A stretch of DNA of 64,000 nt from Owenia fusiformis (lineage: Eukaryota > Annelida > Polychaeta > Sabellida > Oweniidae): the NCBI GenBank assembly GCA_903813345.2, contig CAIIXF020000001.1:4154001-4218000 (forward strand), written 5' to 3'. Positions 12,201-40,400 of this stretch are shown here, piece after piece. Below the pieces are notes generated by a model, which searched no databases, was not told the origin of the DNA, and saw only the letters and a program-made list of their open reading frames with translations. Within the stretch, counting starts at the first letter, position 1. The number at the start of each line of letters is the position of its first letter. The position numbers and the translations under genes were made by a program.

Positions 12201-15200
12201 ATAATGCCTGTTCCCCTCTGGCTCAGTGTAACAATCTAGATGGTTCATATGAGTGTGTTTGTAGGGACGGTTACTATGGCAATGGATTCATCTGTTCAGG
12301 TAAATAGAATTCAGTGTTTATTTTTGACTCTTCAAAGAAGAATGAGATAACTCAATGAACTGGCAGACACTTTAGTTGGAGAAAAACAACTATACAATAT
12401 ACATCTTTACTGAAAAGTGCTAGACTACAAGGGCAAATGAAGACAGCTAATAGTTAATGTAACTATAGGATATGATGTTGACCCATTCTGGTACTCATCG
12501 CATCTGTCTTGTCTTTCAATGCAAAATCCTTTGAATTAGTTAGGATAATTCTCAAATTTAATTTGTGACTTTTTAATATATGATGACTTAACAAGGCATG
12601 CAAACTATAGATACATGTAGCTTATTGGTTGATACATAAAATTGGAATGATTTATTTTTAAAAAATGGGTTCAATTTTAGGTTGCCCATGCCCACTATGA
12701 ATAACTAAAAAATGGCAACTCCACGGAGTAGCAAATCCCAATGAACACCAAATAAATCATCAATCTGTACAGTCACAATGTAATATTTGCCAACTACTCT
12801 TATCTTCAAAAAATATTTTAAATCATTGTAGTATCATGTAACCATACTTTCAAGATAACTCTAAGTAATGGCGAATTTCTGCTCTAGTCAGCCATTTTGA
12901 ATTTTCAGACGAGCAAATCAGAAAAACAATGCCATAATTGTGATCTACTCTGAAATTCCTTCAATTTGAGTATAATATAGCCATACTTTCAAGAGATCAG
13001 AAAATAATTGCGAAAAATCCCGCATTAGGCAGCCATTTTGAATTTTTTGAGGCCTGAATCAGAAAAACGCTACAATATTTGCAATCTATTCTAAATTGCC
13101 TTTCATTTGAGTATAATAAGGCTATACTTTAAAAACAACTCAAAATTAATGCAAGTTTCTGTTTTCCCAATCCCCCATTTACAGCCCTGGGGGTCAGGGG
13201 GAAAAACCCGGGATATATGTGAAATAGATAGATGTTGTTAATATACTACCAAAATTTCAAATAGTAATATTTATTATTTTGGTTTAAAATGACAAACATA
13301 AGATTTTTGCGAAAAATTCCCTCCATTTTTAAACTGGCGGCCAACTTGAAAAAAATATGAAGAAAATCTGTCAACTAGTATTCGAGTTATCTTCCAGACG
13401 GACAGACGTCTTGTTTATATGCTGTTCATGTCATCATCATTCAGTCCAGCTTGAAAATCTATTTGTAGTTGCTGTTGTTTCCTTCTTGCTTCTTCTGATT
13501 TTATTTGTCTTTTCTTTCATTCTTTGTCTTCTTAGTTTCTTATTAGTTTCTGTTGTTACTTTCTTGTCTTCTTTAGTTTCTTCTTTCTTGGTCTTCTTTC
13601 TCCCTATTACTTTTCCTCTTTGGTCTTGTTTGGTGTCGGGTCTGCAGACTTGTGACTACACATCGGTGGGTTAAAGCTTTTTCTACCGGTAACACTCCCC
13701 TTCCCCTTTGTCTTTATCGATGTTTGTTTTTGTTGCTGTTTTTCTTCTATAGTTTACCCTCATTTCGGAGACTGGTATCTAGATTCTGTTTGTTCTTGTT
13801 GTTTTTCCCATTTCCTTATTTGTCTTAGAACTCTGACCATATCTTTAATATTGGATTTTTTGGCTTTTGGTATTTTATCTGTATCCATTTATTTTTAGCA
13901 ACTGTCTTTTTGATATATGGTGACAGTGTTTCTTTCTTATATCCTTGAGATATTAATTTTTTCCCCAAGGACTTGATTCTTTTGGAAGCAATTTTTTCAT
14001 CACTGCAGACTCTTGATATTCTTATTATCTGTGACACATAGACTCCATATGATTGTTTTCTTGGAATGTTTCCTGAAAGGTCTGGATAGGAAACTATATT
14101 GAAATTAAAATCCTCTCTCTTATCATATATTTGTGTAGTAATTTTCTTGTGTTCTATTGTAAGTTTCATGTCAAAAAATGTTGCTTTATTGTTGTTTGCA
14201 TTTTCTTTGTTCAGTTTGAGTTCAGGAGGGTATATATTTTCCCTGTCATTTTCTAATTTTTCATCATTATTTATACTGCATAAGTCATCTATGAATCGAG
14301 CTGTTTTATTATATTTCATTGCTCTTCTATAATCTTCTTTAAACATTTTTTCCATTGCTGTATATTCATATGCATAGAGATATAGATTTGCCATATATGG
14401 TGCTGGATCTATATTCCCATCGGTATTCCAATTTTTTGTCTTCTTTATTAAAGGTTGTCATTTTGGTTCCAGTTCCTCCCCATTTTGCATCTTCACCATT
14501 TACACTAATTTTTTGATTTCTTCCACCTTTAAATGCCTTTGCTCTGGTCCATTTTAGTTTTTCTTTCAGATCTTGTAGGTTTATATTTGTATATAGGGTC
14601 GAAAAGTCAAATGTCACGATATTCCTTGCTCCATTTCTCATATTTACTTCTTTAACAAATTCTAGGACATCATTGTTATTTTGGCAAATCCACATCCTGT
14701 TTGTTCCAGTTAGGTTTTTGATCTTTGACGGATGGACTGAGGGCTTCACTATATCCCTACAGAACTTCGTTCGTTGGGATAAAAAACATAATGTAACAAA
14801 AATAAAGAAATTATTTCAGTTTCGTAAAGGCCTTTTGTGTCTTCCTTTGTATTCAGAATGTTCACTTTAAGAAAGTATTGGTAATATTTGTGTTTTCCAA
14901 TATAACGATAAAGCAAAATGTTTGATTTGAACATCTATTTTGAGCAAACAGCACAAGTTAATTCAAACCCACTCTGATAATTTGGACAAGGTAGTGACCA
15001 GCCACACTTAGATTCAGTCACATATAATCTTCCTCCATCCTTGTTCCTTCTTGCTATATCTGCCTCTGGTGCTTCATCCACACATATGAACTCAGCTTTC
15101 TGATTGGTGATATGTTCAGTCATAATATAGCCATTGTACTCCTTGGTCCAGGTGTCTGGGCATGATTTATAGGCAGGAATCATGACCTGACTAACCCGCT

Positions 15201-18200
15201 GTGGCACCCTACACACTGCACATACAGCCTCGCGGTCATGTAGCCATGAAGCTGGTTCAGTTGGATCGGGAAAATTGTCTGTAAGGAATGGGTTGTTGGC
15301 TTGCAAGTGATACTCAACTCCATGAATATGGGCAGATGACTGTATACCAGACATGGTTTTCCCCCACTCTGGATCCCTGGGCAGGCACAAATAGTTGGCA
15401 CCACCACCTGTTTGATCAAACCAGGTTTTGCCCATGATACCTGGAAAATCAAAGATTATGTTTTTTCCAAAAATGGTGGCCATTTTTAAATTAAGTGCCC
15501 ATCTTGAAAATCTCTTCTTGAGCAAGGCTCTTTTGTTTGACATCCCAAGTTCTTATCAATGCATTTTGAAGCAAACCATTTAATGGATCAATTTTGTAAT
15601 TGTAATTACAGAGTGTCTCAAAAAAATGTTACACTCACAAAAAGTTCAATATCTTTCATAATTTTGACTTTTCCCTAAAATATACTTTGGATACCAAAAG
15701 ACAAATCTTTCTAGAATAATTTGACACCATCAAATTCAAAATCTGTCATTGATTGGCTCCACATGACAGCTTTTAGTGTCCCATGGTAAAATGTGACTTG
15801 CGCCAACTTCTAAGTGATTGGATTGACCAAATGACAAAAGAGGAACAGTTTCTTTAATATTTAACTTTCTTCTGAGTAGAAGCTTGACCTTAAACTGAGT
15901 CATTATGTAATTTTCCTATTTGTCTTACATATGATCATTGGGTCTATCCACATAAACATGTGGTCCCCTCAACATGTTCTCCAAATTAAACTTGAGGTAC
16001 CCTTGCCCATGCGCGCATGAATTGTAATATCACTCTGATTCTATCAATTATTTTTGCAGAAGTTCATTTAGGTCAGTTTGTAATGCTGTAAACTGCTTTC
16101 AGAGGCCCTTAAAAAACTCAAGGGTGTAAAGTGGGATGACCCTGGGGGCCAATCCATTGAGTAATTCAATGCTATCTTCTAATTTCTAAAGAGTTCTACC
16201 AAACGATCTGCCACAGGCCTTTGCACCATCCTGTTGCCATCATAACAAAATTGAACACTCTGACAATGAAATCTTGTATTTCTATCAAGGAAAGAAAGAA
16301 CTGGATCATTGATCATATCAAGATATCACTGTCCAAAGCATTCACACCAAAAAAGAATTGATCATCACATGTCCAGCCACTGAGAAGTTGGCGCAAATCA
16401 GATTTCCCATGCGTCTATAAAATCTGTCCTGTGCAGCCAATCTTGGACGGATTTTGAATCTGATGGTGTGAATTTATTCGAGAAAGACTGGTCTTATGGT
16501 ATCTAAGTATATTTTAGGGGAAAAGTCAAAATCATGAAAGATATTGAACTTTTTGTAAGTGTAACATTTTTTTTGAGACACACTGTAATGTCCATGTTTT
16601 AATCTCACCTGAATAGACTTGTTCTACATTATTTGGACAGACAGTTCTCCCCCATCTCACATACATGGCACCTCCAGTGTGATTGCCTGAACTAGAGGTA
16701 CCACTACTTGAGCTATTACTGGAGCACTGCTCTTTCTGGTGCAATCCTATCAAATAGCTGATATCTTCAACTGATAATCCTTGTGCACTTATCCCCTGGA
16801 AATATAAATGTACTCCACATCAATCAACCATCATTACTGAAAAAATAAAGTTGAAATTAAATAATGCTGCAATTTGTAATAAATGTAAAGGCTTACATCT
16901 CTTCCATTTTTCCCTCGACTACCATCTCTACCTGCTGGTCCGGGTGGTCCAGGTGGTCCATGTGGTCCAGGTGGACCTTGTTGCCCAGGCATGCCATCTC
17001 TTCCATCACGTCCATAGATACTGCAACCTTGAAAATGAGCACACTAATACAGTAACTGAACTATTTGGGTTAATAATCCTATCAAATGAAATTCGGGGGA
17101 TATATGATATGTAGAGAGCGGCTCCATCCATACGTATGTCCGTCTGTCCAGTCAATAACTAAAATACCATTGGTCCAATATTGTTTATATTTTATAAGTA
17201 TTTGCTCTACACTGTATGTGAGTATAAGTTCTGCTTGAAAGCTAATTTTCAAAATGGCCACCAGTTTACGGCTGTAAATTAGGAACCACATATAAAACCT
17301 TAAAAAAAGGTATACAACTTAATATGATTTAAATCCAAAAGTATATAGTATATGAATATATATATATATAAATGACTAAGTTGAAAATCTACTTATCCAA
17401 AAAAACTTGCACCCATCTTGAAAAATGGTAGCCGTTACATGCTGTTTTATGATTTTTGTTGTATCTGGAGAAGCAGTGGACCGATTTTGATCATAGTTGA
17501 TATGTGAATAGGCATGGTACACTATATTATGAGACTTTGGCTCGATGGCGATCATTTTGAATAATGGCCACCATATTTCCAGTATTATTTAACCCTTTTT
17601 AACTAAAACTGGAAAAGTAGTGGACCGATTTTGTTATTTTACATGTGAATAATCTTAATAAACTTTCTAATTTGGCTTTTCCTGAAATGCCAGCCATGGC
17701 TGTTCAATGCGATTTGCTATGCTTTGGTGTTGCTGTTATCTAGTCATCTAGTCTCTTTTAATTAAATTGTATTTAGACTTGCCTCTTATTCTTGTTATTA
17801 AAGAGCCAATCATACTTAAAGCCATGCCCTGGTGTGTATTAAAAGCCTAAACAATCATTCTATTTGTACTATGAGTACATGTTTAACTTTAATAGCAAAA
17901 GAAAATATTTTCAGACATTCTAAGCATTTTAGGAAAGATTTTTTGGATTTTAGTGGTAAAAGGTTATACTAACTTGCAGATGTACCGGCAGCTTGACGTT
18001 TTCCACGATCTAAGTTAATGAGGTCATCCTGCTTTTCTTTTCTTTCATCAGCATAACGCCACTGCTTTAAGGCAAATAAAAAATATGTATGTAATATTTC
18101 AACTCAAATGAAGTTTATAGGACAGAGTATGTTCTAATATTAAAGGCCAATGCAAATGCAACACTGAGAAAAGGCATCTAATATAAAATATTTATAATAA

Positions 18201-21200
18201 GATAATGGAGTTCTATGCAAAGAAGAAACATAACATTGTAAAAGTTATTCCTTGGTCTGAAAAAATTATTTTCAAAATTGTCGCCAGTGTTGAAAACAAA
18301 GGCAATAGAGACATATTCAATGATTAATAAAAAAAATTATAGAAAGTGTAAAGAATACACATAACACATTGGCTTAATTCTTACATGATAGTCGTATAAG
18401 CTATTATACACATACCTGATCTTCCAGGGTTTCAATCCGAGTCTTAAGTTCTGCTATCTCATCTTCTCCTGTTTGTACTTTCACCTGGACATTCAGTAAT
18501 TCATCCTTCACTTTAAGTAACTCATTATAAAAGGTAATAGAGCATGCAAGAGACGCAACAGCTAGGCATATTGTAAATACCATCACAATTGATAGCATGC
18601 ACATTCTATCCTTATTCTCCATTTTCATTTTTTCTTGTTTTTGGAGTTCCGAACTTAAGAAAACCTGTTAAGCTTCCTATCACTTTCAAAATTATGATCT
18701 TGAAATGTTATTCGGATATTTTGTAAAAGAGAAACATCATTTAATGATTCCTGGAACATTAAAATAAAATAATTTTTAGAATTTATGTTTGTTTAGTAAA
18801 GGATGACCTTATCAGTTTTTATTATCCTGTTTGTTTTCTTAGAACATGGTTATTTATCAAAACATTTTTCTGTTAATACAAGTTCAGGGTTATAACAAAA
18901 AGGTTTTTTTTGAAGTAAACATGTTGACATTTAAAATACAATAAAAGTAAAACTTGTTGATAATAAATAAAAATTAAAGAACCTTTTTTCACTTTGCACC
19001 TATTTATGAGGATCCCAGCTGTGGCATAATGGTTGAGAAATGGGGATCGAAACCAGCCATAGTTTTTTCCTGATGACCATTTTGAAAGATTGTATATTAT
19101 GGATTATAGTGTCAGCTTTGGGGATGAATTTGACTTTTTGTAATAACTTCAATATGAATGAAATGTCCCTTGGTGTTATGGTCTCAGATTGTGATATCCC
19201 ACTTGAATGGTGGGGGAGGGGGGTATTAGACACCTTTTCTTTTCACGATGGATTGTGATTTGGGATCATCTGGGTTTCCCTTATGACTGGTATACTCTCG
19301 GATGTTCTCATTTTCTTGCTGTGTTCTGTAACCATTTTTAATGGTACTTTCCCGTTGGCACTTGGCACTGTTTAATATTGTATTCATGATCTGTGTTTTT
19401 GTATAAGGTACTTTGTTCAAACTCTCTGGGTTGCAATGGTATAGATGGTTAATAGCCCTTGGAAGGTTATACAAAATAAAACAAAGAATTCTAGGCATTG
19501 TATTAAAATGATGTTGTATAAATAAAAATGGATAACTCAGTGGTGATATAATGGTAAATTCCTTGTTGGGTGTGATGTTCGGGTAGGCCAATATATGCCA
19601 AATTCATTAAAATGATCACCTAATGTATCAATGAAAACTGTGTTTCTAAAGTACTTCGAGTAGAAACTGCATACAGAATTCAAATATGTTATCAAAGAGA
19701 ACAATTTGGTCATCGATGGTTAAACATGCAAAAATATCATTAAATAATTAATTATCATTAAATGAATTTTGGGGAAAAATTTCGAAAATGGGTGAAAATT
19801 ATGTATACAAATCCTAAATTAATGGGTATTGTTCAAGAGAAGTTAAAATTGAACGAGGTATCCGACAAGGTTGTCCATTATCGGCACTGTTATTCATATT
19901 ATGCACAGAAATAATGTCAAATAACATAGAAAAAAATGATAAAATAGAAGGTATAACTATAAACAATAATGAAATTAAAATACTACAACATGCGGACGAT
20001 ACAACAATTATGTTAAGACAAAAAGACTCAATAATATATTTTCTTGAAGAAATAAACAAATTCTCAAAATTAAGTGGCTTAAAGTTAAACTTAGATAAAA
20101 CACATGGTATATGGCTTGGAAATCAGAACAATGAACCAGATTTATACAAGAATATAAAATTTACAAAGAAACCAATTAAAGTCCTTGGAGTTTATATTGG
20201 AAATGATCTTAAAAAGTGTGAAGAATTGAATTGGGACCCAAAATTTTTAGAATTCGAAAAATTATTTGAAACGTGGAAGAAAAGAAAACTGACCTATTTT
20301 GGAAAAGTTCAAGTGATTAATAGCTTAGGGATTTCAAAACTAGTTTATAATTTTTCAATACTGAATGTGCCTGATTATGTTTTAAAGAAAGTGAATAAAA
20401 TAATTTTTGATTTCTTATGGAAAAGAGATAGATTAAAAAGAAATACAATTATAGGAAAAGTTGAAAATGGGGGTCTAGGGCTAGTAGATCTAGAATTGAA
20501 AATAGCTTCAATTAAAGGAAGTTGGGTAAAACGAATCTTTTCTGAAGATAATACTTGGAAAAATATACCAGAACATTATATTAAAAAATGTGGATTTGAG
20601 GTAAAAGATTTCATTAAGACTACATTTACACAAGAAATAAAGATAAATATGCCTAAATTCTATAAGGATATTTTTAGTGCATTCAATAGATGTAAAATTG
20701 ACAAATTAAACAAACAAAATCTTTTTGGTGAAATCTTTTGGCTAAATGAAAAATTAGTGAGCAACAAGGGAAACGTTTTTTACAGCCATAATTGGATAAA
20801 AAGTGGGTTTATCTATATAAAGGATTTTTTAAAGATGGAGTTTTTATTGATGAGCAGTATATTCTGAATAAATTGATAAAGAAACACAATTGGATGATCG
20901 AATATATAAGAATAAAAGGTTATTTAAATAAACTCACTCAAAATTTGGATAGAAAAACAGAAAAATATACAAATATAAAAGCAAAAAACAATTACCTTAT
21001 GAAAGATGGTAAATGGATGCATATACAGCATATCAATGCTAAACGATTATATAATATTTTACTAGAAAGTAAACATGAAAGAAGCATTATGGAAAGACAC
21101 TGGGCAACAATTTTCAGCACACCAAGATGTAAAACGTTCTATGGGAAAGTATATGATTCAAAAATAAAAAATATGATATATAAAAAACATGCAGAATTCA

Positions 21201-24200
21201 ATTTTAAGCTTTTCCATAATATTTTAGCATGTGGGAATACTATATACAAATGGAATAAAGAAATTAACCAGTATTGTAGTGAATGAAGAGTGATACAAAC
21301 TCCAAAACATTTATTACTGGACTGTAAGATTGTACAAAATATTTGGGAAAAAATTAGAAATATCTTAAGATGTGATATCAAATGGAAACATTTTATTTTA
21401 GGGTTCTATATGTTGGAAGGTAATGTCTCTCAGTCAAGAAATGTAATTCTCACAATAGTGGGATATACAATTTATTCAAATTGGGTTAAGAACTCAAATA
21501 ATATGGACAGATACAAAAGTATAAATTTTGAAAACACTGTAATCAACCGACTGAAATTATACATTAACAATTTAGATATGATGAAGAGTGAAAAAAATGT
21601 TGTTCTAAAAAATAGCTTAGAGATCTTTTTAAAACAAATTTGAATAGACTATGTATGTGTATTGATATATTGTCATGTATTTTAATATATTGTATATATG
21701 TTTAATTTGCAAATTGTATCAGATGCTGGCACAGTTTTGCCGGAAGTTTACAAGAAGTAACTTTTGGCAATGCAGTATGTTAGAGTAACCTAGTAGGTGT
21801 AAGAAAATATAAGGTGATGGCCTTTAAAGTGGTAAAAGCAATTTTCACGGCCGAATTGGACTTCAATTCCTGCGATTTCAGGGGGTAGTATAAGATTATT
21901 TCATAACATAAAGGATATAGTTGCTATTGTTCTGCTTTCTACAGCACACATTACTAGTCCAAAGATGAATAATATCCTAAAGTTATAGGCCGATATCTGT
22001 ATTAGTCTCAGAAATATTGCAATTAATAGGAAAAAAATACGCAATTTTAGTCATTTTTAAGTCTCACGTATCTTATATTTGTAGCTTCCAGCAAAAGATG
22101 GCAACTTAAATAGCTCAAAATTGTTTTCTAAAAACTAATTCAAGCTTTGTTTGATATTGTAATACAATTATAATAATGATAATGTACTATTTATGATTTT
22201 TAATATGACTTTATAGTACCCTACCCCTGGAAAGTGGGCGTGGTCAATGTTATCATTTTGCAGCATACAATTAAAAACTTGTATTGATAGAAAGCAAATC
22301 AATGCATATAAAACATCTTCACTTGTTACTTGACAATGTAATTCATTTATTATTAAAAAATATAGACTCTACATATTTTATATATACAATTTCAATTTTG
22401 TACAATGTATCATAATGAAATCTAATAGGCTGTTTCAATTTCCAAACTTTTTCTCGGATCACCCTTACCTTTTGACAAAATGATCTACTATATGACCAAT
22501 AGCCACAAAAAATAGCAGAACTGATCAACGTTTAAACCCCCCCCCCCCCTACCCCTAAGTTTGTTTTGTATGGGGTCCGCCACAATGCAACAAGTCCATT
22601 TTCAGTGCTTACTATCACATGGAATATAAGTCACAATGTTTCCACAATATCTGGGCAATGAGATAGTGCCATTAAGAACATGTATGCCCAGATTCAAGAT
22701 CATGGTGTAAATGCTTGCCGATCTATCGGCTTTCAAAAATGAGGAAAGTTGTCTTGAGTGCCGTTTCAACTAATTTTGAATTAAAACTGCTACTTATGAA
22801 TTTTTTTCTCAACAACTGTGATTTGGTTAGAGTCCAAACACAGGATATATATATATCTTTTATTGACTCTTTAGATGTCATATCATGACATATTAGTCAC
22901 TAAGGTAGAGCAGTTCTTCCCATTGTCGAGTTGAAGAATTGGTATCTTTATCCTGGCTTGAACCATAGACAATTCTAGCCAGCGCCAGCCTTTTATCGAG
23001 TTAGCAGCACTCTAGTGATCGCCGGTATAGGTCAGCAGTCATAGGTCAAAGACAAATCACAAGAAGTGCTGTGACCTGGGTTTGAACCAAAGACCTCTAC
23101 TTTTTTAGCCTGAAGCCAGACTTCCTGCTTTTCAGACCAATGCCTTAACCACTAGGCCAACCCAGTGACCACATCCAGACATAGTGCTACCAAATTCTGG
23201 TATTGAAAATTTCAGAGCTCTAGATCAAGTATTCATATCTGCATGGACTCTTAAAAAGACCCAAAAGACACAAAATGCAGTCAGATATCGCCAAAAAATG
23301 TGACAAAATGCACTATTCAGAACAATTTATCTCTTAAATTTTACTTTTATTTACCATAATTTCTGATTCTGCCTCTGGTTGGTAATACCAATAATACATA
23401 TGAGTAGACTTAAGGTCATAGTAAGTGTAGTTACAGATTTATTAGCATCTAAAAATGGGAGAAGCAGTGTAGCAAGTGCAATTTTCACCTATAATTCATA
23501 ATATTAAACCGCAGATTTCAGGATTTTCTTCTCTAAAACAAGAATTCCGTGAGACCCCAAAAGACTGGATTCCATATCACTGTACCACCAAATATATATG
23601 AGAGTAGTTTCAGGAGGTTATATCAAATAATCATTGAACCATTGACACCTAAAAATATGCAAAATACAGTCAGAAATGGTGAAATTGTGATTGTGAAAAA
23701 ATGTATGTATTCTTAACAATTTTTTAACTATACTGTATTTTATTTAGAACTGAAACTTGAAGTGCTTACTAGGAGTTACATCTAGTTATTATTTATTAAG
23801 TGACTTCAGCATCCGGATTGATATAATATAGGAATATCCTATGGTTTTGAAAAAATATCATTTATATCCATGAGTGGATATTGATATTTTCATGAGTGAG
23901 CGCAGCGAGTGAGTGAAGATATTTGTATCCATGAGTGGATATAATTGATATTTTTGAAAAAAAATTATTTATCCCATGGGAAATCATCATCAGCGAAAAA
24001 ATGTGAAAAATATAATTCGAGAAAAAATTTGAAAAAATAATTGAAAAAAAAATTGTGAAAAAATGTTGAAATTTTTGAAATAAATATTTTTGAAAATAAT
24101 CAAAAAATGTAAAAAGAAATGTTTTTTGAAAAAATTCGAAACCATGGAATATCACTTTTCAAACCACCGAATATCACTTTTTAAGACGTGATATTCGATA

Positions 24201-27200: not shown

Positions 27201-30200
27201 CCAAAAGGGCAGTAGTTCTGAATGATAAGTATTTTGGAAAAGCGTTACCATAAATACAGCCAAGTATGAATTATTTTCTGACAATTTGTCAAGTTTTGTG
27301 GCTTTTTGAGATATCATGGCTAGTACTCTTATTTGCGTACTGCTTAACAGGCAGTAAAAGGCAAGCAGATCACAGATGACCTATTTTTGATAAATAATAT
27401 TGAAATGATCTATTTTTTAAAAAAGTGGGTTCAATTTTAGGTTGCCCATTGCAGGATCAATAAAAAACACAATGACAAATATTATACCATAGCTGATCCA
27501 TTGAATGAAGCCTCTACCAAAAAAATGAAGTCAGTTCCTTAAATGTTCAAGAAATTACATTTGATACCCTGTATATTCAAAATGTTCAGTTTGCTCATGT
27601 TAAGAAAGCATTGGTATGAAGCATAATGTTTGATTTTAGCATCTATTTCGTGCAAACAGCACAAGTTAATTCAAACCCTTCTCGATAATTTGGACAAGGT
27701 AATGAGTAAACACACATAGATTCAGTCACATATAATCTTCCTCCACCCTTGTTCCTTCTTGCTTTATCTGCCTCTGGTGCTTCATCCACACATATGAACT
27801 CAGCTTTCTGATTGGTGATATGTTCAGTCATAATATAGCCATTGTACTCCTTGGTCCAGGTGTCTGGACATGATTTATATGCAGGAATCATGAACTGACT
27901 TACCCGCTGTGGCACCCTACACACTGTACATACAGCCTCACGGTCATGTAGCCATGAAGCTGGTTCAGTTGGATCGGGAAAATTGTCTGTAAGAAATGGG
28001 TTGTTGGCTTGCAAGCGATACAGAACTCCATGAATATGGGCAGATGACTGTATATCCGACATGGTTTTCCCCCACTCTGGATCCCTAGGAAGGCACAGAT
28101 AGTTGGCACCACCACCTGTTTGATCAAACCAGGTTTTGCCCATAATACCTGGAAAATCAAAGATTATGTTTTTTCCAAAAATGGTGGCCATTTTGAAACT
28201 CAGTGCCCATCTTGAAAATCTCTTCTTGAGCAAGGCTCCTTTGTTTGACATCCCAAGTTCTTATCAATGCATTTTGAAACAAATAATTTAATGTATCAAT
28301 TTTGTAATTGTAATTAATGTCCATGTTTTAATCTCACCTGAATAGACTTGTTCTACGTTATTTGGGCAGACAGTTCTTCCCCATCTCACATACATGGCAC
28401 CTCCAGTGGGATTGCCTGAACTAGAGGTACCACTACTTGAGCTATTACTAGAGCACTGCTCTTTCTGGTGCAATCCTATCAAATAGCTAATATCTTCAAC
28501 TGATAATCCGTGTGCACTTATCCCCTGGAAATATACGTACGTATGTACTCCACAACAATCAACCATCATTTCTCAGTGATAAATGTTACTGAAAAAATAA
28601 AGTTGAAATTAAATAATGCTGCAATTTGTAATAAATGTAAAGGCTTACATCTCTTCCATTTTTCCCTCGACTACCATCTCTACCTGCTGGTCCGGGTGGA
28701 CCAGGTGGTCCAGGTGGACCTTGTTGCCCAGGCATACCATCTCTTCCATCACGTCCATAGATATTGCCACCTTGAAAACGAGCACACTAATGCCTTGGTC
28801 ACATTTGCTCCGATTGAATAATGGCCACCATATTTACAGTATTATTATTTTACTTTAAGCCATGTTCTGGTGTGTATTAAAAGCCTAAACAATCATTCTA
28901 TTATTTTTATACTATTAGTACATGTTTAACTTAAATAGTAAAAGAAAATATTTTCAGACATTCTAATCATTTTAAGAGAGATTTTATTTGGTGCGAAATC
29001 TGTATTTTTCTCTTATTGATTTTAGTGGTAAAAGGTTATACTAACTTGCAGATGTACTGCCAGCTCGACGTTTACCACGATCTAAATTAATAAAGTCATC
29101 CTGCTTTTCTTTTCTTTCATAAGTATAACTCCACTGCTATAAGGCAAACAAAAAATATGTATGTAATATTTCAACTCAAACAAGTTTATAGGACAGAGTA
29201 TGTTCTAATATTAAAGGCCAATGCAAATGCAACACTGAGAAAAGGCATCTAATATAAAATATTTATAATAAGATAATGGAGTTCTATGCAAAGAAGAAAC
29301 ATAAAATTGTATAAGTTATTTCTTGGTCTGAAAAAAAATATTTTCAAAATTGCCGCCAGTATTGAAAACAAAGGCAATTATTAAGCTTGCACAATTTTCT
29401 TTTGAAATAGATAAATATTCAATGATTAATAAAAAAAAATATAAAAAGTTTAAATAATACACATAACACATGGGGTTAATTCTTACATGATATAAGCTAT
29501 TATATACATACCTGATGTTCCAGGGTTTCAATCCGAGTCTTAAGTGCTGCTATTTCATCTTCTTCTCTTTGTACTTTCACCTGGACATTCAGTAATTCAT
29601 CCTTCACGTTAAGTAACTCATTGTAAAAGGTAATAGAGCATGCAAGAGACCCAACAGCTAGGCATATTGTAAATATCATCACAATTGACTGCATGCACAT
29701 TTTATCATTATTCTCCATTTTCATTTTATTTTCCTAGTTCTGAACTTAAAAAATCCTTTAAGCTTCCTCTCTTTTTCAAAGTTATGATTTTGTAATATGA
29801 TATGCTGATATTTTGTAATTCTAGAGAAACATCATTTAAAGATTCTTGGAACATTAAAATGAAATAATTTTTAGAATTTATGTTTCTTTTAGTAAAGGAT
29901 GAACTTCTCAGTTTTTATTATCCTGTTTGTTTTCTTAGAACATGGTTATTTATCAAAACATTTTTCTGTTAATACAAGTTCAGGGTTATAACAAAAAGGC
30001 TTTTTGTGGTAAACATGTTGACATTTTGAACAATAAAATACAATAAAAGTAAAACTTGTTAATAATTAATAAAAATTTAAGAACCTTTTTCACTTTGCAC
30101 CTATTTATGAGGATCCCAGCTGTGGCATAATGGTTGAGAAATGGGGATCGAAACCAGCCATAGTTTTTTCCTGATGACCATTTTGAAAGATTGTATATTA

Positions 30201-33200
30201 TGGATTATAGTGTCAGCTTTGGGGATGAATTTGACTTTTTGTAATAACTTCAATATGAATGAAATGTCCCTTGGTGTTATGGTCTCAGATTGTGATATTG
30301 ATACTTGAATGGTGGGGGAGGGGGGTATTAGACACCTTTTCTTTTCACGATGGATCGTGATTTGGGATTATCTGGGTTTCCCTTATGACTGGTATACTCT
30401 CGGATGTTCTCATTTTCTTGCTGTGTTCTGTAACCATTTTTAATGGTACTTTCCCGTTGGCACTTGGCACTGTTTAATATTGTATTCATGATCTGTGTTT
30501 TTGTATAAGGTTCTTGTACTTTGTTCAAACTCTCTGGGTTGCAATGGTATGGATGGTTAATAGCCCTTGGAAGGTTATACAAAATAAAACAAAGAATTCT
30601 AGGCGTTGTATGATTCAGAGATAATGATGTCAGAGATATACCAATTGCAACTCCAGTACTTTTTGATACTTTTAAAAAGCTTGGTGAAGCACCGGCTTAT
30701 GACTTCTTTGATTATGAAGCTTTAAAAGAAATGAAAACCTTTATATTAGAATATAATTCGTATCATCCATATACACATGAATAAGAAGTTAGCAATCACC
30801 TACTTAACCATGTTATACATGAAAAAGAAGTGATTAATGCTTTGAATAAGATTAATGCAAACAAGTCACCAGGTATAGATGGCCTACCTTCTAATATTAT
30901 CAAAAATTGTAAGGACCTAGCTTTAGATTTTACTGCACTTTTTAACTTTATATTTGATAAAGGAGACTATCCCGATGAATGGAGTATCGGTATGCTTTCC
31001 ACTCTTTATAAACAAGGATCGCGTTTCAATCCAGATAATTATAGGGGAATAAATGTTCTTGCTTGCCTAGGTAATGTTTTTGACACAATCATCCAAACAA
31101 GACTTGTCTTTAATGCTGAAATGCTTAATATACAGGATCTTTTACAAGGGGCCTACAAATCTGGGCATCGTACAACAGACAATTTGTTTATTTTAAATAC
31201 AAGCATTTCACATTTTAAGAGGCAGAAAAAGCCTTTATTTTGTATAATGATAGATTTTAGGAAGGCATTTGATTATGTCAACCGGACAGCACTTCTTTAT
31301 AAATTATGTAAGTCAGGTATTCAACCGAGTTCAAAAATGTTTAAGATTATTGATAGCATGTACCAAAAATCAAAATCTTGCCTCAAACTTAAAGATGGCA
31401 TCACGCCAACCTATAAGACTGAAATTGGTGTCATGCAGGGCTCTGTACTCAGTACATACCTTTTCAACCATTTTTTGGATGACTTGAAAGATTATCTTCC
31501 ATCTGAATATGGTGTAGAGTTTGAAGGTGTTTCTCTTAATCACTTAATCTGGGCAGATGACTTAATATTAATAGCTAACTCTACAACTGGTGCTCAATCA
31601 ATGCTAGACTCTCTCTTTGATTTTTGTCGAAAATATCATCTTGTTGTCAACACTGTTAAAACAAAAGCTATTAGTTTTAACTCTAAATCAGAGGAAACTT
31701 TTAAATTCAATAACGAAGTGATTGAATGTGTTGAAGATTACAAATATATAGGGTGTATTTTTAACAGGAAAAGTAATTTTGATAAGCAAATAAGCTATCT
31801 TAAAGAAAAATCCAGAAAAGCTCTATTTAAAATAAAGCAACAACACCATAAGTTTAATGACATTCCTATATCCGTTGCATTACATTTATTTGATTCACTT
31901 GTCCAACCAATTCTGATGTATGGTTCAGAAATATGGACAAGTAAAAAACATATTAAGACAATTGAAACTATCCATCTTTCTTTTTTAAAAAACATTCTTG
32001 GTGTAAAAACATCAACTGCAACACTAGCAGTTTATGGGGAGCTGGGTCGGTTCCCTTTGAGTCTATGTTTTGATATTCAACTTATTAAATATTGGATAAG
32101 GCTTATAAAATTATGTCCAGACAACATCCTTTATAAATCATATCTTTATGATTATGAAATGCACAGTTTGGGTTTTAAAAATACATGGTCTAGTAAAGTT
32201 TATAACATTTTAAAAGATTGCAATCTTCTTCTTAACTGGAATGAACAAATTGTTGAAGATGATTTCACATTTATAAATGTTTTAACTAAGACATTGCACC
32301 AAAATTATAAGGACAAATGGAAGTGTGATTTACAATTATATCCAGTTCTGAGAACATATGTTAAATTTAAGACAACTTTTGAATTGGAGCAATATTTAAG
32401 CCTTCAGAACAAAAATCATAGGCAGACCTTTACCCGATTAAGGTTAAGTTCTCATAAACTTCAAATAGAGCTGGGTAGACATGTGAAACCACGGCCAAAA
32501 CCTGAACATGAAAGAATGTGTAATGTTTGTGGAGAAATAGACAATGAAATTCATTTCATGATAAATTGCCAAATACATCAAGAAAATAGAAAAGTATTGT
32601 TCGAGAACATCAACAGCAAAATTAAATTTGATGAATGCCATCCTGAAAATGCATTCATAATGTTAATGTCCTCAAAAGATAAATATGTCCAAAAGCAAGT
32701 TGGCATTTTTATAAATAAAGCATTCAAGGTCATTGAACTTGTCTGAAGAACATTCTGGATGCATCACACTGCTTTAAGTATTATGTATAGTTCAATACAT
32801 GTTAATAACATGTTTTTGTATATACTATATTTGTATAATAGTAGTGTAGTGTAGTGTAGTATAATGTAGTGTAGTATAGTTAGGTTTTATTTTGTAATGA
32901 CTAATATGTCATACCATGACATTCTAAGAGTCAATAAAAGATATATATATATTAAAATGATGTTGTATAAATAAAAATGGATAACTCAGTGGTGAATATA
33001 ATGGTAAATTCCTTGTTGGGTGTGATGTTCGGGTAGGCCAATATATGCCAAATTCATTAAAATGATCACCTAATCACGGGGTACCATCGAATAATTTTGG
33101 CAACGTACCGGAGAACGACATTTTACTAAGAAATGGCAATAATTTAGCACAATATATTTTTTAACTAGAGTTCTACTTTGATTTTGACAAAAGTAAGTAT

Positions 33201-36200
33201 TCCATGCAATGGCTATTTCATTCATGAGTTTGTAGGAATTCTGTTGGAACCCAGTTCTGATCAAGTACGAAGTTATTGAAATCGGCGCAGACGGACTTTA
33301 CTCCGAAAGATGGTTTTTCGATTATAACTTTTTACAACATTTAAGTATAGAATTTTGAAAAAAGTACAGAATAGTCCTTATACTATTGAATAATTCTGTT
33401 ATTTCTGATTCACACGACTCTGATTTGTTTAATTAAAAAAAAGTTTTAAAAATATTACTTAGGAACGTAACCGGAGCAGATCAGTTGAATTATATAATTT
33501 AAAAAAATAAAATATATGATTTAAAGCATATATTTTAATAAATACGCATTCAAACAATCCTGTATGTTTTTAAATTAGTATATGTGCTTTAAATCATATA
33601 TTTTAATTTTTTTGATTAAATAATTCAACTGATCTGCTCCGGTTACGTTCCCAGCTCCGGTTACGTTCCTTAGTAATATTTTTAAAAATTTTTTTTTAAT
33701 TAAACAAATCAGAGTCGTGTGAATCAGATATAACAGAATTATTCAAAAGTATAAGGACTATTCTGTACTTTTTTCAAAAGTCTATACTTAAATGTTGTGA
33801 AAAGTTATAATCGAAAAACCATCTTTCGGAGTAAAGTCCGTCTGCGCCGATTTCAATAACTTCGTACTTGATCAGAACTGGGTTCCAACAGAATTCCTAC
33901 AAACTCATGAATGAAATAGTTATTGCATGGAATACTTACTTTTGTCAAAATCAAAATAGAACTCTAGTTAAAAAATATATTGTGCTAAATTATTGCCATT
34001 TCTTAGTAAAATGTCGTTCTCCGGTACGTTGCCAAAATTATTCGATGGTACCCCGTGCTAATGTATAAATGAAAATTGTATTTCTAAAGTACTTCGAGTA
34101 GAAAACTGCATACAGAATTCAAATATGTTATCAAAGAGAACAATTTGGTCATCAATGGTTAAACATTCAAAAATATCATTAAATAATTAGACTCAACAAG
34201 ATTTCAAAGCTACATTGCAAAACCTCTATTACTGATCATGACTGCCAACAATTACCTTGTTTATGGCTGTTATATGTTACATAAATTGTCAATATTAATT
34301 ATATTATATTATATAAGGGCTATTGTACTGGGAGGTTTTGGATATGGGGTTTATCCAGGAGTAGATGTGCATATCTCACGAGGGATAAACCCCATATTCA
34401 AACCCACTGTACATAACTGCTTTATCCTTTACCCAGTTTTCTCATTTTTTCAATTTTTATTTTTGTCAATTTTTTTCATTTTTTTCAAAAATTTTTATTC
34501 AAATTTGTGGGAAGATATGCCCTGAAGCAGGAGATGTGGAGGTTCTTGATTTTGAAACCTAAAAATCAGGATATGGGATATATCTTACCCTCTTATCTCC
34601 CTAAAACTCTACTGGGCATAAATTATATTATATTATATAATATTATATATTGTATTATATCATAGAGAAGGTTCTAGAAGAAATAAAAGCTCTGCCAATT
34701 TTCAAATTGACCCATGGCTTCAAAATTATCCAGTAGAGCTTATTGTAGTGTAATTATAGTTCATATATCACTTTTATTGATATATTGTATCATTTCATGA
34801 TTACATAAGTAATAACTAGTCACTGAAAGACTAAAATGACATCTACAGGGGAATATGCATGTGCTACATTTCATATGCATATTAAAAGCACAAGGGAGGC
34901 AAAATATTTTAAGGTGTGATATACAGAGTATGCTGACTTTTTCTTAATTGTTAAATGAGTGACAAATACCAAAATGATATTATTATAGTATGATATTATC
35001 ACTTGAAGTTATACTTATTTGGAAAATAAATCATCACTCAAATCAGAACAAATTAACTGTATGTTGATGTTTATGATGTTGATAATAAGAACTGGAGTGA
35101 TTTCGTAGATATTTTTTATTGGAAGCATGTCATATTGTCTAAATGACAATTTGTGGCATTTGTCCAAAAGGGCAGTACCATAGCTGATCCATTGAATGAA
35201 GCCTCTACCAAAAAAATGAAGTCATTTGCTTAAATGTTCAAGAAATTACATTTGATACCCTGTATATTCAAAATGTTCAGTTTGCTCATGTTAAGAAAGC
35301 ATTGGTATGAAGCATAATGTTTGATTTTAAAGGAAGGAGAACAATTAATGCATACATTGGTGTGTCATCTACTGTGAATAACCCGTCAAATCCATTAACT
35401 GCATCAAGGCTATATTGGACAATATGTGTCCCTACAATAACATATGGAATGGAACTATTACCCTTAAGAGAGTCTGATTTAAAGTGTATTGAAAATGGTC
35501 ATAGAGGTATTGCTAGGAAAATTCAAGGGATTCCAAAACATGCAAGTAACGCAGCATCAACATCTATGTTGGGCTGGCACTCCCTTACCTCCAAAATAGT
35601 CATCAATAAACTAATGCTCTTATGGCAACTAATATCTCTGCCATTTTCAAGCATCTTTAAAAGGGTAGCTGTATTACGTATTATCCATGCATCCTATGAG
35701 AGCCTAAATAGCTTCTCACCAATAGGAAACTGCATCCAGATAGCAGAGGCATATAACCTTGAAAGCTATATATATAGAATGATGTCTCATGAATTTGAAT
35801 TATCTAAAGTAAAATGGAAAAATATTGTTAAAAACAAAGTGCACCAAATTGAAATACGAAAATGGCAAATGGAATGCATACTTTCAAAAAAACTTTATAT
35901 GTTTAGAATTGTATCCCCAATTTTTAAACCCATTATATGGTGGCATATTGCAAAATCAGACCCAAGAGTCTTAAAGTGTTGCAGAACTGTAATTAAATTG
36001 GTTATTGGTGAGGGAAATATTATGGTAAATGTTAACAAATGGACAAATGGTAGGACTTCGAATGTATGTAAAGTATGTAAGCTAGAACCTGAAACTCTGA
36101 GTCATATGATCCTTAGATGCCCTGGCCATTATGAGGAAAGGGATGCAATCCTAAGGATTCTTAAATCTGTTGTTAATACAACACAGGATATCCCTAATGA

Positions 36201-37410
36201 TACCATTTTGGGCTGGATATTTGGAGCCTGTGATGTATTTAATATACAGCAGTATAAAGAAATATCTGTATATATTCATAAAATTTACATAAATAGACCA
36301 GACCCTTGGCCTGGCATCACATAATACCATATTGTATATATGTTTACCAATGTACATGTATCACTGTATATATGTTAATTTATCTATTATAAATTTTATA
36401 TAAAAAATTAATGTATAACACATCAGAAATGGTGGATAAAATAAACAAATAAAAAAATAAAAAACATCTATTTCGTGCAAACAGCACAAGTTAATTCAAA
36501 CCCATCTTGATAATTTGGACAAGGTAATGAGTAACCACATATAGATTCAGTCACATATAATCTTCCTCCATCCTTGTTCCTTCTTGCTATATCTGCCTCT
36601 GGTGCTTCATCCACACATATGAACTCAGCTTTCTGATTGTCGACATGTTCAGTCATTATATAGCCATTGTACTCCTTGGTCCAGGTGTCTGGACATGATT
36701 TATGGGCAGGAATCATAACCTGACTAGCCCGCTGTGGCACCCGACATACTGCGCATACTGCATCATGGTCATGTAGCCAAGAAGCTGGTTGAGCCGGAAC
36801 AGGAAAATTGTCTGTAAGAAATGGGTTGTTGGCTTGCAAGTGATACTCAACTCCATGAATATGGGCATTTGATTGTCTACCAGACATGGTCTTTCCCCAC
36901 TCAGGATCCCTAGGCAGGCATAGATAGTTGGCACCTCCACCTGTGCTAGCATGCCAGGTTTTACCCATAATACCTAGAAAATGAAACAAATAAGATTGTT
37001 TTCATTGTACTGTACATGCACTTGTATTTTCGTTTGTCACAATATTTTCACAATTTAACTTATTATGGACAAATGAGTATTATGTCACCACTAAAAAGTG
37101 GTGACATATTGTTATGGTCTCCATTTTTTGTGACGGCGGTTGGTGATCAGCTGTCGGCAGTTGGCGTCTGTAAAAGGGCCTTTTTCAACTTGCTTCAAAT
37201 TGACCAATTTTTTTCAAAATTGACTTCAAGTTGTCAGAAATTCAAATCTGACTTAAGTTTGAACTCATAATATTGTGAGCAACTAGATGGTGACACTTTG
37301 TCATGTTAATGCCTTGTGCATACTAGTCCTTGCACTACTGTTAATACTGTTAACTTTATTGACATATTTATCCCAACGAATGAAGTTCGGTAGGGATATA
37401 GTGAAGCCCT

Positions 37411-37447
<37 letters not shown>

Positions 37448-40400
37448 TGTCAGTCTGTCTGTCCATACGGAAGATAACTCAAATAATAGTAGACAGATTT
37501 TCTTCATATTTGGTGTATATTGGTGAATGGTTTTACGCAAAATAAAATTTTTCAAGATGGCCACCGCTTTAAAAATGACAGGACTTTTTCGCAAAAATCA
37601 TAAATTTTTCATTCTAAACCAAAGTAATTTATATTATTGTTTGAAATGTTGGTAGTATATTCACAACATTTATATATTTCACATATATTCTGTGTTTTTC
37701 ATCCTGACCCTCAGGGGCCGTGTATGGGGGGTCAGGAAAACAGAAATTTTCGCTAATCTTTAGATCTTTCTGAAGTATAGCTTTATTATACTCAAATGAA
37801 AGGCAATTAAGAGTAGATTGCAAATATTGTATCTATTTTCGAGCCTCGTAAAATTCAAAATGGTTGCTTTGCAGGAATTGGCAATTCTGAAATCTAATTT
37901 TTTCAATTTTAACCAAAGTAATGAGTATAATTGATTGGAATTCGGTAATTGATATTTTGTTCGTTGGTATTTGCTACTCCGAGGAGTTGCCGTTATCTAG
38001 TTCTATCAATATCTGTTTTGGTAGTGGGAGGTTGGATAGACATCCCATTAGTTCTTATCAATGCATTTTCATGCACTTTTGTAATTCTAATTAACTTTTT
38101 TTAATTTCACCTGAATAGACTTGTTCTACATTATCTGGACAGACAGTTCTCCCCCATCTCACATACATGGCACCTCCAGTGTGATTGCCTGAGCCAGAAG
38201 GACCAGTACCACTAGGCCCTGATGATCCTTGAGAACCATGTACACCAGAAGAGCCAGAACTATTACTGGAGCACTGCTCTTTTTGCTGCAATCCTATCAA
38301 ATAGTTGATATCTTCAACTGATAGTCCTTGTGCACTTATCCCCTGGAAATATAAATGTACTCTACATCAATCATTTTTCAGAGATAACTTTTACTGGAGA
38401 AATAATGTTGGAATCGAATAATGCTGCAATTTGTAATAAATGTAAAAATGAAATCTAAGCTCACATCTCTTCCATCTTTTCCTGGACTTCCATCTCTACA
38501 TGCTGGTCCAGATGGACCTTGTTGTCCAGGAGGTCCCTGTTGTCCCGGTGAACCTGGTAATCCAGGTGGACCTTGTTGCCCAGGCATGCCATCTCTTCCA
38601 TCACGTCCATAGATACTGCCACCTTGAAAACAAGTACACTAAATGTCCATACCCCTGGTGTGTATTAGAGGCCTAAACAATGAGGAAACCTAATGGAACT
38701 CATCATTCTATTATTTGTTTTACTACTAATACATGTATTACCCGGGATCCATAACCTTAACAGCAGATGAATATTTTTCAGACATTCTAATCATTTTAAG
38801 AAAAAAATTATTTAGTATAAAATCTGTATTTTTCTCTTTGGATTTAAGTGGTAAAAGGTTATACTAACTTGCAGATGTACTGGCAGCTTGACGTTTACCA
38901 CGATCTAAATTAATGAGGTCATCACGCTTTCCTTTTCTTTCATCAGTATAACGCCACTGCTTTATTAAGGCAAACAAGAAATATGTATGTAATATTTCAA
39001 CTCAAACGAAGTTTATGGGACAGAGTATGTTCTAATATTAAAGGCTAATGCAAATGCAACACTGAGAAAAGGCATCTAATATAAAATATTCATGATAAGA
39101 TAATGGAGTTCTATACAAAGAAGAAACATAAAATTGTAAATTATTCCTTGGTCTGAAAAAATTATTTTCAAGATTGCCGCCAGTGTTGAAAACAAAGGCA
39201 ATTATTAAGCTTGCAAAATTTTCTTTTGATTTAGATAAATATTCAATGATTAATAAAAAAAAAATATAGAAAGTGTAAAGAATACACATAACACATGGGC
39301 TTAATTCTTACATGATATAAGCTATTATACGCATACCTGATCTTCCAGGGTTTCAATCCGAGTCTTAAGTTCCACTATTTCATCTTCTCCTCTTTGTACT
39401 TTCACCTGGACATTCAGTAATTCATCCTTCACTTTAAATAACTCATTGTAAAAGGTAATAGAGCATGCAAGAGACGCAACAGCTATGCATATTGTAAATA
39501 CCATCACAATTGATAGCATGCACATTCTATCCTTATTCTCCATTTTCATTTTATTTTCTTAGTTCTGAACTTAAGAAATCTGTTAAGCTTCCTCTCTTTT
39601 TCAAAGTTATGATTTTGTCATATGATATGACTTCTTGGAACTAAGGATGTTTGTTTGGTAAATAATTTTTAGAATTTATGTTTGTTCAGTTTTATGTTTG
39701 TTTAGTAAAGGAATGATCGTGTCAGTTTTTATCATCTTGTTTGTTATCTTAGAACTACTGAACCTTGTATTTATCAAAACATTTTTCTATTAATACATCA
39801 ACATGACTTTTGCAACAAACACGTTGACATCTTGAACGTGTTATTAGGACAAAAGTTTAGTCCTTCATGGTAAAAATTCTAATTTTATTAAAATGAGATT
39901 CTTACAAGATTCAAAACTACAGGTACTAGTACATTGCAAAAATGCCATTGTGGCTAAGAGACAACAACTGTTACATTATTGTAATAATGTTTGTCATGTA
40001 AATATCTTGTTTATGACTGGTCTATACTATTTTACTATCTGTACTATTTTACTACCTCCGCTATATTTTGTAATATGTTACTAGCTGTACTATTTTGCAA
40101 GCTGTACTATTTTACTAGCTGTACCATGTTACTAGCTGTACTATTTTACTAGCTGCACTATGTTAGTAGGTGCACTATGTTACTAGCCGTACTATTTTAC
40201 TAGCTGCACTATGTTATAATTTCAGATGTGAATGAGTGCCTGGAGAACAATGGTGACTGTTCAATGAAATGTGTTAATACCCAAGGCAGCTTCAAATGTG
40301 AATGTGTATCTGGATATGTGGTCAGTATAGCAACATTTATACAAAGATATGATTCTTCAAGAATAAAGATTGAAGAGTGAATAAATCTGTAAATGTACAG

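Follow-up and report, generated by a model that had tools for sequence, protein, structure and literature searches.

Spongin short-chain collagens (the short-chain collagen C4 family) are found across invertebrates except ecdysozoans and combine a short Gly-X-Y run with an NC1-like head. This head has seven cysteines in common with the NC1 domain of collagen IV and three of its own, and has no HSQ motif (PMC5395295). MACITs, which comprise collagens XIII, XXIII and XXV and C. elegans COL-99, have a type II membrane anchor and a coil that aids trimerisation, and are shed by furin (PMC4678570). Nested genes are known from animals: in seven vertebrates, 4.3–8.7% of protein-coding genes occur in nested structures, simple nested pairs lie on opposite strands in 74.3% (human) and 77.8% (mouse) of cases, and internal genes are said to arise mostly by duplication into introns (PMC8467205). 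A 64,000-nucleotide stretch of the genome of the polychaete Owenia fusiformis (assembly GCA_903813345.2, contig CAIIXF020000001.1, positions 4,154,001 to 4,218,000 of the forward strand; hereafter “the window”) carries three short-chain collagen genes in tandem on its minus strand, within a predicted intron of a plus-strand receptor-like gene. Taken as a whole, it is probable that these genes are nested tandem duplicates that encode membrane-anchored, shed collagens, and that their nesting is positional.

The array spans 14935–39549, from the end of the copy 1 stop codon to the first base of the copy 3 start codon, and consists of three five-exon genes with consensus splice sites (Table 1). 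All 12 introns of the gene models are GT...AG, exon entry phases (0,0,1,0,1) are common to the three copies, and the products of copies 1, 2 and 3 have 374, 371 and 398 amino acids, respectively, with no internal stops. Coding lengths differ among copies in exons 3 and 4, always by multiples of three. The initial annotation had described three five-exon antisense genes with identical phases and open frames, and the coordinates match to the base; it had also called them intact, which is true of the frames but not of the Gly-X-Y run of copy 3, which has a Gly-to-Cys substitution. At the protein level, exon 5 of copy 2 is 92% and that of copy 3 is 89% identical to exon 5 of copy 1, so the copies are paralogues rather than chance resemblances. 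A translated search of the window (E up to 1) gave no matches beyond these three copies. Haplotype duplication is an unlikely source of the copies because intron 4 differs in all three and because, among the matches listed in a genome search with the head, only the window's three copies exceed 71% identity.

Table 1. Gene models of the collagen array, features of the host gene and related head arrays. Positions are those of the window unless a genome sequence is named; C1, C3, C4, C5, C9, C10 and C11 denote sequences of this genome, with the window on C1, and L numbers in the text denote fetched loci.
Feature	Position	Strand	Basis or content
Copy 1 exon 5, nine of ten head cysteines, stop codon at low end	14935..15440	-	Gene model
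Copy 1 exon 4, linker and RWGRTVCP start of head	16609..16795	-	Gene model
Copy 1 exon 3, Gly-X-Y run, 13 triplets	16897..17027	-	Gene model; Pfam Collagen E 7.4e-07
Copy 1 exon 2, RGKR convertase-like site	17974..18061	-	Gene model
Copy 1 exon 1, start codon, predicted hydrophobic anchor, heptad coil	18416..18628	-	Gene model, hydropathy, heptad score
Copy 2 exon 5, head	27643..28148	-	Gene model
Copy 2 exon 4	28338..28524	-	Gene model
Copy 2 exon 3, Gly-X-Y run, 12 triplets	28649..28770	-	Gene model
Copy 2 exon 2, RGKR site	29046..29133	-	Gene model
Copy 2 exon 1, predicted anchor and coil	29512..29724	-	Gene model, hydropathy, heptad score
Copy 3 exon 5, head	36468..36973	-	Gene model
Copy 3 exon 4, 45 nucleotides longer than in copies 1 and 2	38111..38342	-	Gene model
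Copy 3 exon 3, Gly-X-Y run of 16 triplets with a Gly-to-Cys substitution	38465..38622	-	Gene model
Copy 3 exon 2, RGKR site	38869..38956	-	Gene model
Copy 3 exon 1, predicted anchor and coil, start codon at high end	39337..39549	-	Gene model, hydropathy, heptad score
Host frames, two ends of VWD domain	3495..5257	+	19.0 and 19.3 bits, under Pfam cut-off 22.9
Host EGF exon preceding the intron, both ends in phase 1	12174..12299	+	Splice sites read by eye
Predicted host intron, 27.9 kb, GTAAAT...TTTCAG, presumed single transcript	12300..40225	+	Edge coordinates by eye
Next host EGF exon, entered in phase 1	40226..40320	+	By eye; end is a guess
Host open frame with TSP_1 domain	45559..45840	+	Pfam
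Host open frame, hydrophobic stretch, probably membrane-spanning	48308..48562	+	By eye
Head array	C5 near 6.42-6.56 Mb		11 heads
Head array	C4 near 0.84-0.90 Mb		6 heads
Head array	C9 near 10.47-10.49 Mb		4 heads
Head array	Window		3 heads
Head array	C9 near 26.17-26.19 Mb		3 heads
Head array	C11 near 24.30-24.33 Mb		3 heads
Head array	C10		2 heads
Head array	C3 near 23.62 Mb		2 heads

The three proteins have a common plan. An uncharged run of 26, 22 and 26 residues in copies 1, 2 and 3 lies on the N-terminal side and is followed by a coil with a heptad score matched by only 1, 2 and 4 of 1000 shuffles; an RGKR site lies downstream of the coil in all three copies, ahead of a single Gly-X-Y run. 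This run is the only part of a window protein that Pfam recognised (29.3 bits, cut-off 27.2). Each copy would encode a type II membrane protein with a cytosolic N-terminus, an anchor, a trimerising coil, a proprotein-convertase site, a very short rod of collagen and an NC1-like head with ten cysteines. Chains are predicted to trimerise most likely via coil and head, and cleavage at RGKR, also most likely, would shed the rod and head into matrix or mucus. The signal anchor of the earlier protein plan, here a hydrophobic N-terminal stretch, and its coil, RGKR site and short collagen stretch are retained, while its C4-like head finds no Pfam C4 match.

An unlikely reading, although the strongest of the alternatives, is that these are secreted matrix collagens with a cleaved signal peptide. 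Several observations pull in that direction or otherwise sit poorly with an anchored, shed trimer. The hydrophobic run could be a cleavable signal peptide. Hydropathy and charge are in broad agreement with a type II topology, as net charge is +1, 0 and +1 before this run in copies 1, 2 and 3 and -1, -2 and -1 after it, but copy 2 has no net positive charge on the presumed cytosolic side. PMC5395295 treats spongins as matrix proteins, secretion is predicted for two sea-anemone short-chain collagens (PMC6626399), Nematostella spongin-like genes are expressed mostly in neuroglandular cells (PMC12549020), and distant relatives in this genome begin with sequences that look signal-like by eye. The thirteenth Gly-X-Y glycine of copy 3 is a cysteine (GPACRDG), which could break the rod or cross-link chains. 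In the window proteins, however, the hydrophobic run is long and precedes a coil, and C9 and C3 paralogues keep the convertase site; such a cutting site is most sensible behind an anchor, which favours membrane attachment.

Heads of all three copies contain ten cysteines and lack HSQ, and exon 5 has nine cysteines in all 26 family open reading frames from fetched loci. With a short collagen stretch joined to such a head, the window genes match the short-chain collagens of spongin type, a large family already known from invertebrates, and their heads are of the spongin short-chain variant; the cysteines fit by count rather than by the columns of a published alignment. Their N-termini extend this build by an anchor-like stretch together with a coil and a convertase site, none of them mentioned for spongins in the text consulted (PMC5395295). 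Pfam gave no family for the window head or for 4 of 4 members tried, including no C4 match, and the label “C4-like domain” used for the head by the initial annotation is better replaced by spongin short-chain type. Besides lacking a C4 match and HSQ, the window proteins differ from collagen IV in their very short rod. Local profile similarity to NC1 is present: an NC1 query assembled from this genome's own collagen IV scored 32.6 and 34.8 in hhalign against two head profiles over 54–56 columns, compared to at most 16.6 in 20 shuffles. Tempering this similarity are the probabilities that hhalign itself assigns to the match (only 46 and 58%), the absence of matches to solved structures in a sequence search with a 29-row head profile, and an AlphaFold2 run on exon 5 of the three window copies with no usable fold (mean predicted local distance difference test score 29.5). 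A 4-row head profile gave three matches to solved structures (E 0.17–0.69), none of them a collagen.

The array is one of several in this genome. A head search listed 61 places, of which 47 are near full length by our own count (two with an internal stop). Among these, 22 of 47 are 65–100% identical to copy 1 and 34 of 47 fall into tandem arrays when heads on the same strand with gaps up to about 33 kb are grouped (own grouping; Table 1). In a tree of 29 heads, which covers the window's three and 26 others as part of the family and has 8 of 26 inner branches well supported, the window copies form one clade (100/99) with copies 1 and 2 as sisters (100/95). Six paralogue loci were scanned. Anchor-like starts occur at three C9 places, one C3 place and one C4 place; convertase sites occur at the three C9 places (RGKR) and the C3 place (RRKR), and the C4 convertase exon lies outside the fetched sequence. 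A convertase-like match in L013 was left uncounted because it lies outside the reading frame of the gene.

Four distant members, on C11, C10, C9 and C5, combine the spongin-type head with coiled coils in one open frame that contains no Gly-X-Y run, and group together in the head tree (95/81). The C5 member (L004:3763-7725, near 41.566 Mb) is a single frame of 1320 amino acids that is nearly all coiled-coil-like with a spongin-type head at its end and no collagen stretch. Frames of 391, 341 and 271 amino acids at L016 (C11), L017 (C10) and L020 (C9) have a signal-like start, a coil and the same head in one exon, also with no Gly-X-Y. The head acts as a mobile module. We tentatively propose, as a plausible but far from secure scenario, that a spongin short-chain branch (22 loci here) became membrane-anchored and convertase-shed and now presents or releases trimeric NC1-like heads at the cell surface, with a MACIT-like build reached independently on an unrelated head, while another branch carries the same head on collagen-free coils; the members in which anchor and convertase site have been observed are the three window genes, one C3 gene and three C9 genes.

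Window proteins are built like MACITs but are not members of that family, because each has a single short triple helix and its C-terminus differs. MACITs have a type II anchor, a membrane-adjacent coil, a furin-type site and a collagen ectodomain, and a similar layout is predicted from sequence for the window proteins. MACITs have three COL domains rather than one run of 12–16 triplets, and a C-terminal motif with two spaced cysteines where, judged by the published description, the ten-cysteine spongin-type head stands here. Invertebrates are also said to have a single MACIT, in contrast to the many genes in this genome. No description of an anchored short-chain collagen was found in searches of an open-access library that lacks the founding family paper; the anchor-plus-convertase-site build of the C1, C9 and C3 genes might be what a specialist would find new. 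Should this build prove genuine and widespread, a collagen IV-type head would have been transferred to a shedding stalk at the cell surface, a design known elsewhere from MACITs, and this in a large family whose cutting step can be tested directly.

The host is a plus-strand VWD/EGF/TSP1 gene, and the array lies inside its predicted phase-1 intron 12300–40225 of 27.9 kb. A GTAAAT donor at 12299/12300 and TTTCAG before 40226, both in phase 1, make this interval a legal intron, and the array in all likelihood sits in one intron of one host transcript. EGF_CA domains occur in three of the host frames scanned, with further EGF-like frames recognised by eye, and by frame reading the downstream half also has a cytoplasmic-looking tail. 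Geometry, splice sites and phases all agree with the earlier claim of nesting in a single 28-kb intron, in which the status as one transcript is a prediction. It is improbable that the EGF exons on either side belong to two genes and that the array is intergenic rather than intronic. EGF exons often run from phase 1 to phase 1, so the matching phases are weak evidence for continuity. A genome search for host paralogues gave 67 matches: the six strong matches (E <1e-30) fall on exons of the host itself, and the others, at E 6e-12 or weaker, on TSP1-like or VWD-like fragments elsewhere; with no clear paralogue, the exon order has no confirmation from a copy that lacks the insert. Each half nevertheless seems incomplete alone, with VWD and EGF upstream and EGF, TSP_1 and a membrane-spanning stretch downstream, and both intron edges are consensus splice sites in phase 1, which favours a single host gene; terminal exons or a second start were not searched for systematically. 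A host tail frame at 48804–49499 contains a run of SAKSERPE-like repeats with no Pfam match.

Within this intron, a spongin-type short-chain collagen gene, introns included, would have landed on the opposite strand of the VWD/EGF/TSP1 receptor gene and duplicated twice in place; 5' halves of the copies would then have exchanged sequence, and transposon insertions would have spaced the copies apart. Collinear matches link copies and spacers (17813–19503 with 28851–30611, 26254–27214 with 34161–35177, and 19620–19750 with 34058–34189), which suggests that the array arose by tandem duplication in place followed by insertions. The copies have a mosaic structure: on the upstream side of about 17940 all three are separated by roughly equal distances, and on the downstream side copies 1 and 2 group together. 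This break is the best one over 231 informative sites (permutation p 0.001, the floor of 1000 permutations), with intron 4 left out as it is non-homologous in copy 3. Synonymous divergence of copy 3 is lower in exons 1–2 than in exons 4–5 (p 0.022 against copy 1 and 0.008 against copy 2), and synonymous rates at the 5' and 3' ends do not differ between copies 1 and 2 (p 0.64). Sequence exchange among copies in their 5' halves explains this most simply. Retroposition as a source of copies is excluded, as introns are kept. An open frame shared upstream of copies 1 and 2 (19226–19603 and 30328–30696) was considered as an extra exon and rejected; it is partly dispersed repeat and has no Pfam match.

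Repeats and insertions occur throughout the array. The part of the shared upstream region of copies 1 and 2 at 19201–19364 is a dispersed repeat with at least 39 other matches at 73–81% identity, counted among the 40 of 867 candidates that were scored. An element at 15620–16573 in intron 4 of copy 1 has 171-nucleotide inverted ends that are 82% complementary; by eye, comparison with copy 2 places TA on either side, and it resembles a small insertion of Tc1/mariner type. Between copies 1 and 2, an insertion is marked by a 685-nucleotide inverted repeat (21678–22362 and 25594–26278; 95% complementary, with 3.2 kb between arms). Between copies 2 and 3, 30785–32746 contains a reverse-transcriptase frame (RVT_1) of 653 amino acids that is stop-free, which suggests recent insertion.

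Selection on the copies was assessed from ratios of nonsynonymous to synonymous rates (dN/dS, or omega), a check named in the initial annotation. Pairwise dN/dS is 0.36, 0.28 and 0.43, with bootstrap upper limits of 0.60, 0.43 and 0.64, all below 1. Private changes, for which the neutral expectation is 78% nonsynonymous, number 6 nonsynonymous and 10 synonymous in copy 1, 23 and 9 in copy 2, and 29 and 21 in copy 3, where no outgroup was used and the count includes the shared branch. Nonsynonymous changes are below neutral in copy 1 (p 0.0005) and copy 3 (p 0.0009). The data thus support purifying selection on the pairs and on copies 1 and 3, but not on copy 2 taken singly (omega about 0.7; one-sided p 0.24), so the earlier suggestion that retained frames reflect selection is borne out in part. 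Sequence exchange among the copies complicates all of these figures. The constraint signal is located in exons 4 and 5. Less favourable to a conserved anchored and shed protein, exons 1–3, which encode anchor, convertase site and rod, have no clear constraint, as every dN/dS upper limit exceeds 1, and copy 2 may be under relaxed constraint.

The copies could instead be decaying duplicates that are open only through youth, which is more doubtful still than a split host gene. Such decay is compatible with the near-neutral private changes of copy 2, with omega of 0.86, 0.34 and 1.55 in exon 1 (with wide intervals), with the Gly-to-Cys change in copy 3 and with substitution-only neutral runs of one copy, in which 25% were stop-free at length 0.03 and, among 3000 runs at 0.04 (close to the branch length of copy 2), 15%. 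It is opposed by the deficit of nonsynonymous private changes in copies 1 and 3, by coding-length differences in multiples of three and by the same neutral runs at length 0.262, about the summed length of the three branches, in which 0 of 1500 were stop-free.

No evidence was found for a link between array and host, and the nesting appears to be positional, with no demonstrated regulatory role. A gene in a large opposite-strand intron is an arrangement known from animals; PMC8467205 gives its detailed counts for single internal genes, whereas this locus has three internal copies. An internal array of three copies is less usual but calls for no special cause. Large introns and frequent duplication are known to yield nested duplicates. 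The antisense interference or coordinated expression with the host that had been raised for this locus is highly improbable: strands are opposite, the copy 3 start codon is 677 bases from a host exon and nested-gene interference is documented (PMC3192792; in Drosophila it is thought to drive expression divergence of nested genes, PMC8467205), so a regulatory effect is possible in principle, but no host receptor was seen in the 10-kb flanks of the C9 and C4 arrays, a limited check confined to these flanks, in which small exons could be overlooked. By eye, frames of at least 75 amino acids in the C9 flanks look like retroelements, repeat frames occur upstream of the C4 array, and no cysteine-rich frame of 35–74 amino acids in the four flanks resembles host EGF exons. 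The anatomy described at the outset is accurate, and the array is a mostly ordinary tandem expansion of a large known family. Its nesting changes little; the protein plan matters more, and anchored, possibly shed short-chain collagens are the part worth following. Immediately downstream of the C4 array, L028:3554-8649 (C4 near 0.906–0.911 Mb) contains two amiloride-sensitive-channel-like exons (ASC, E 1.7e-05 and 2.1e-08) on the same strand as the collagens.

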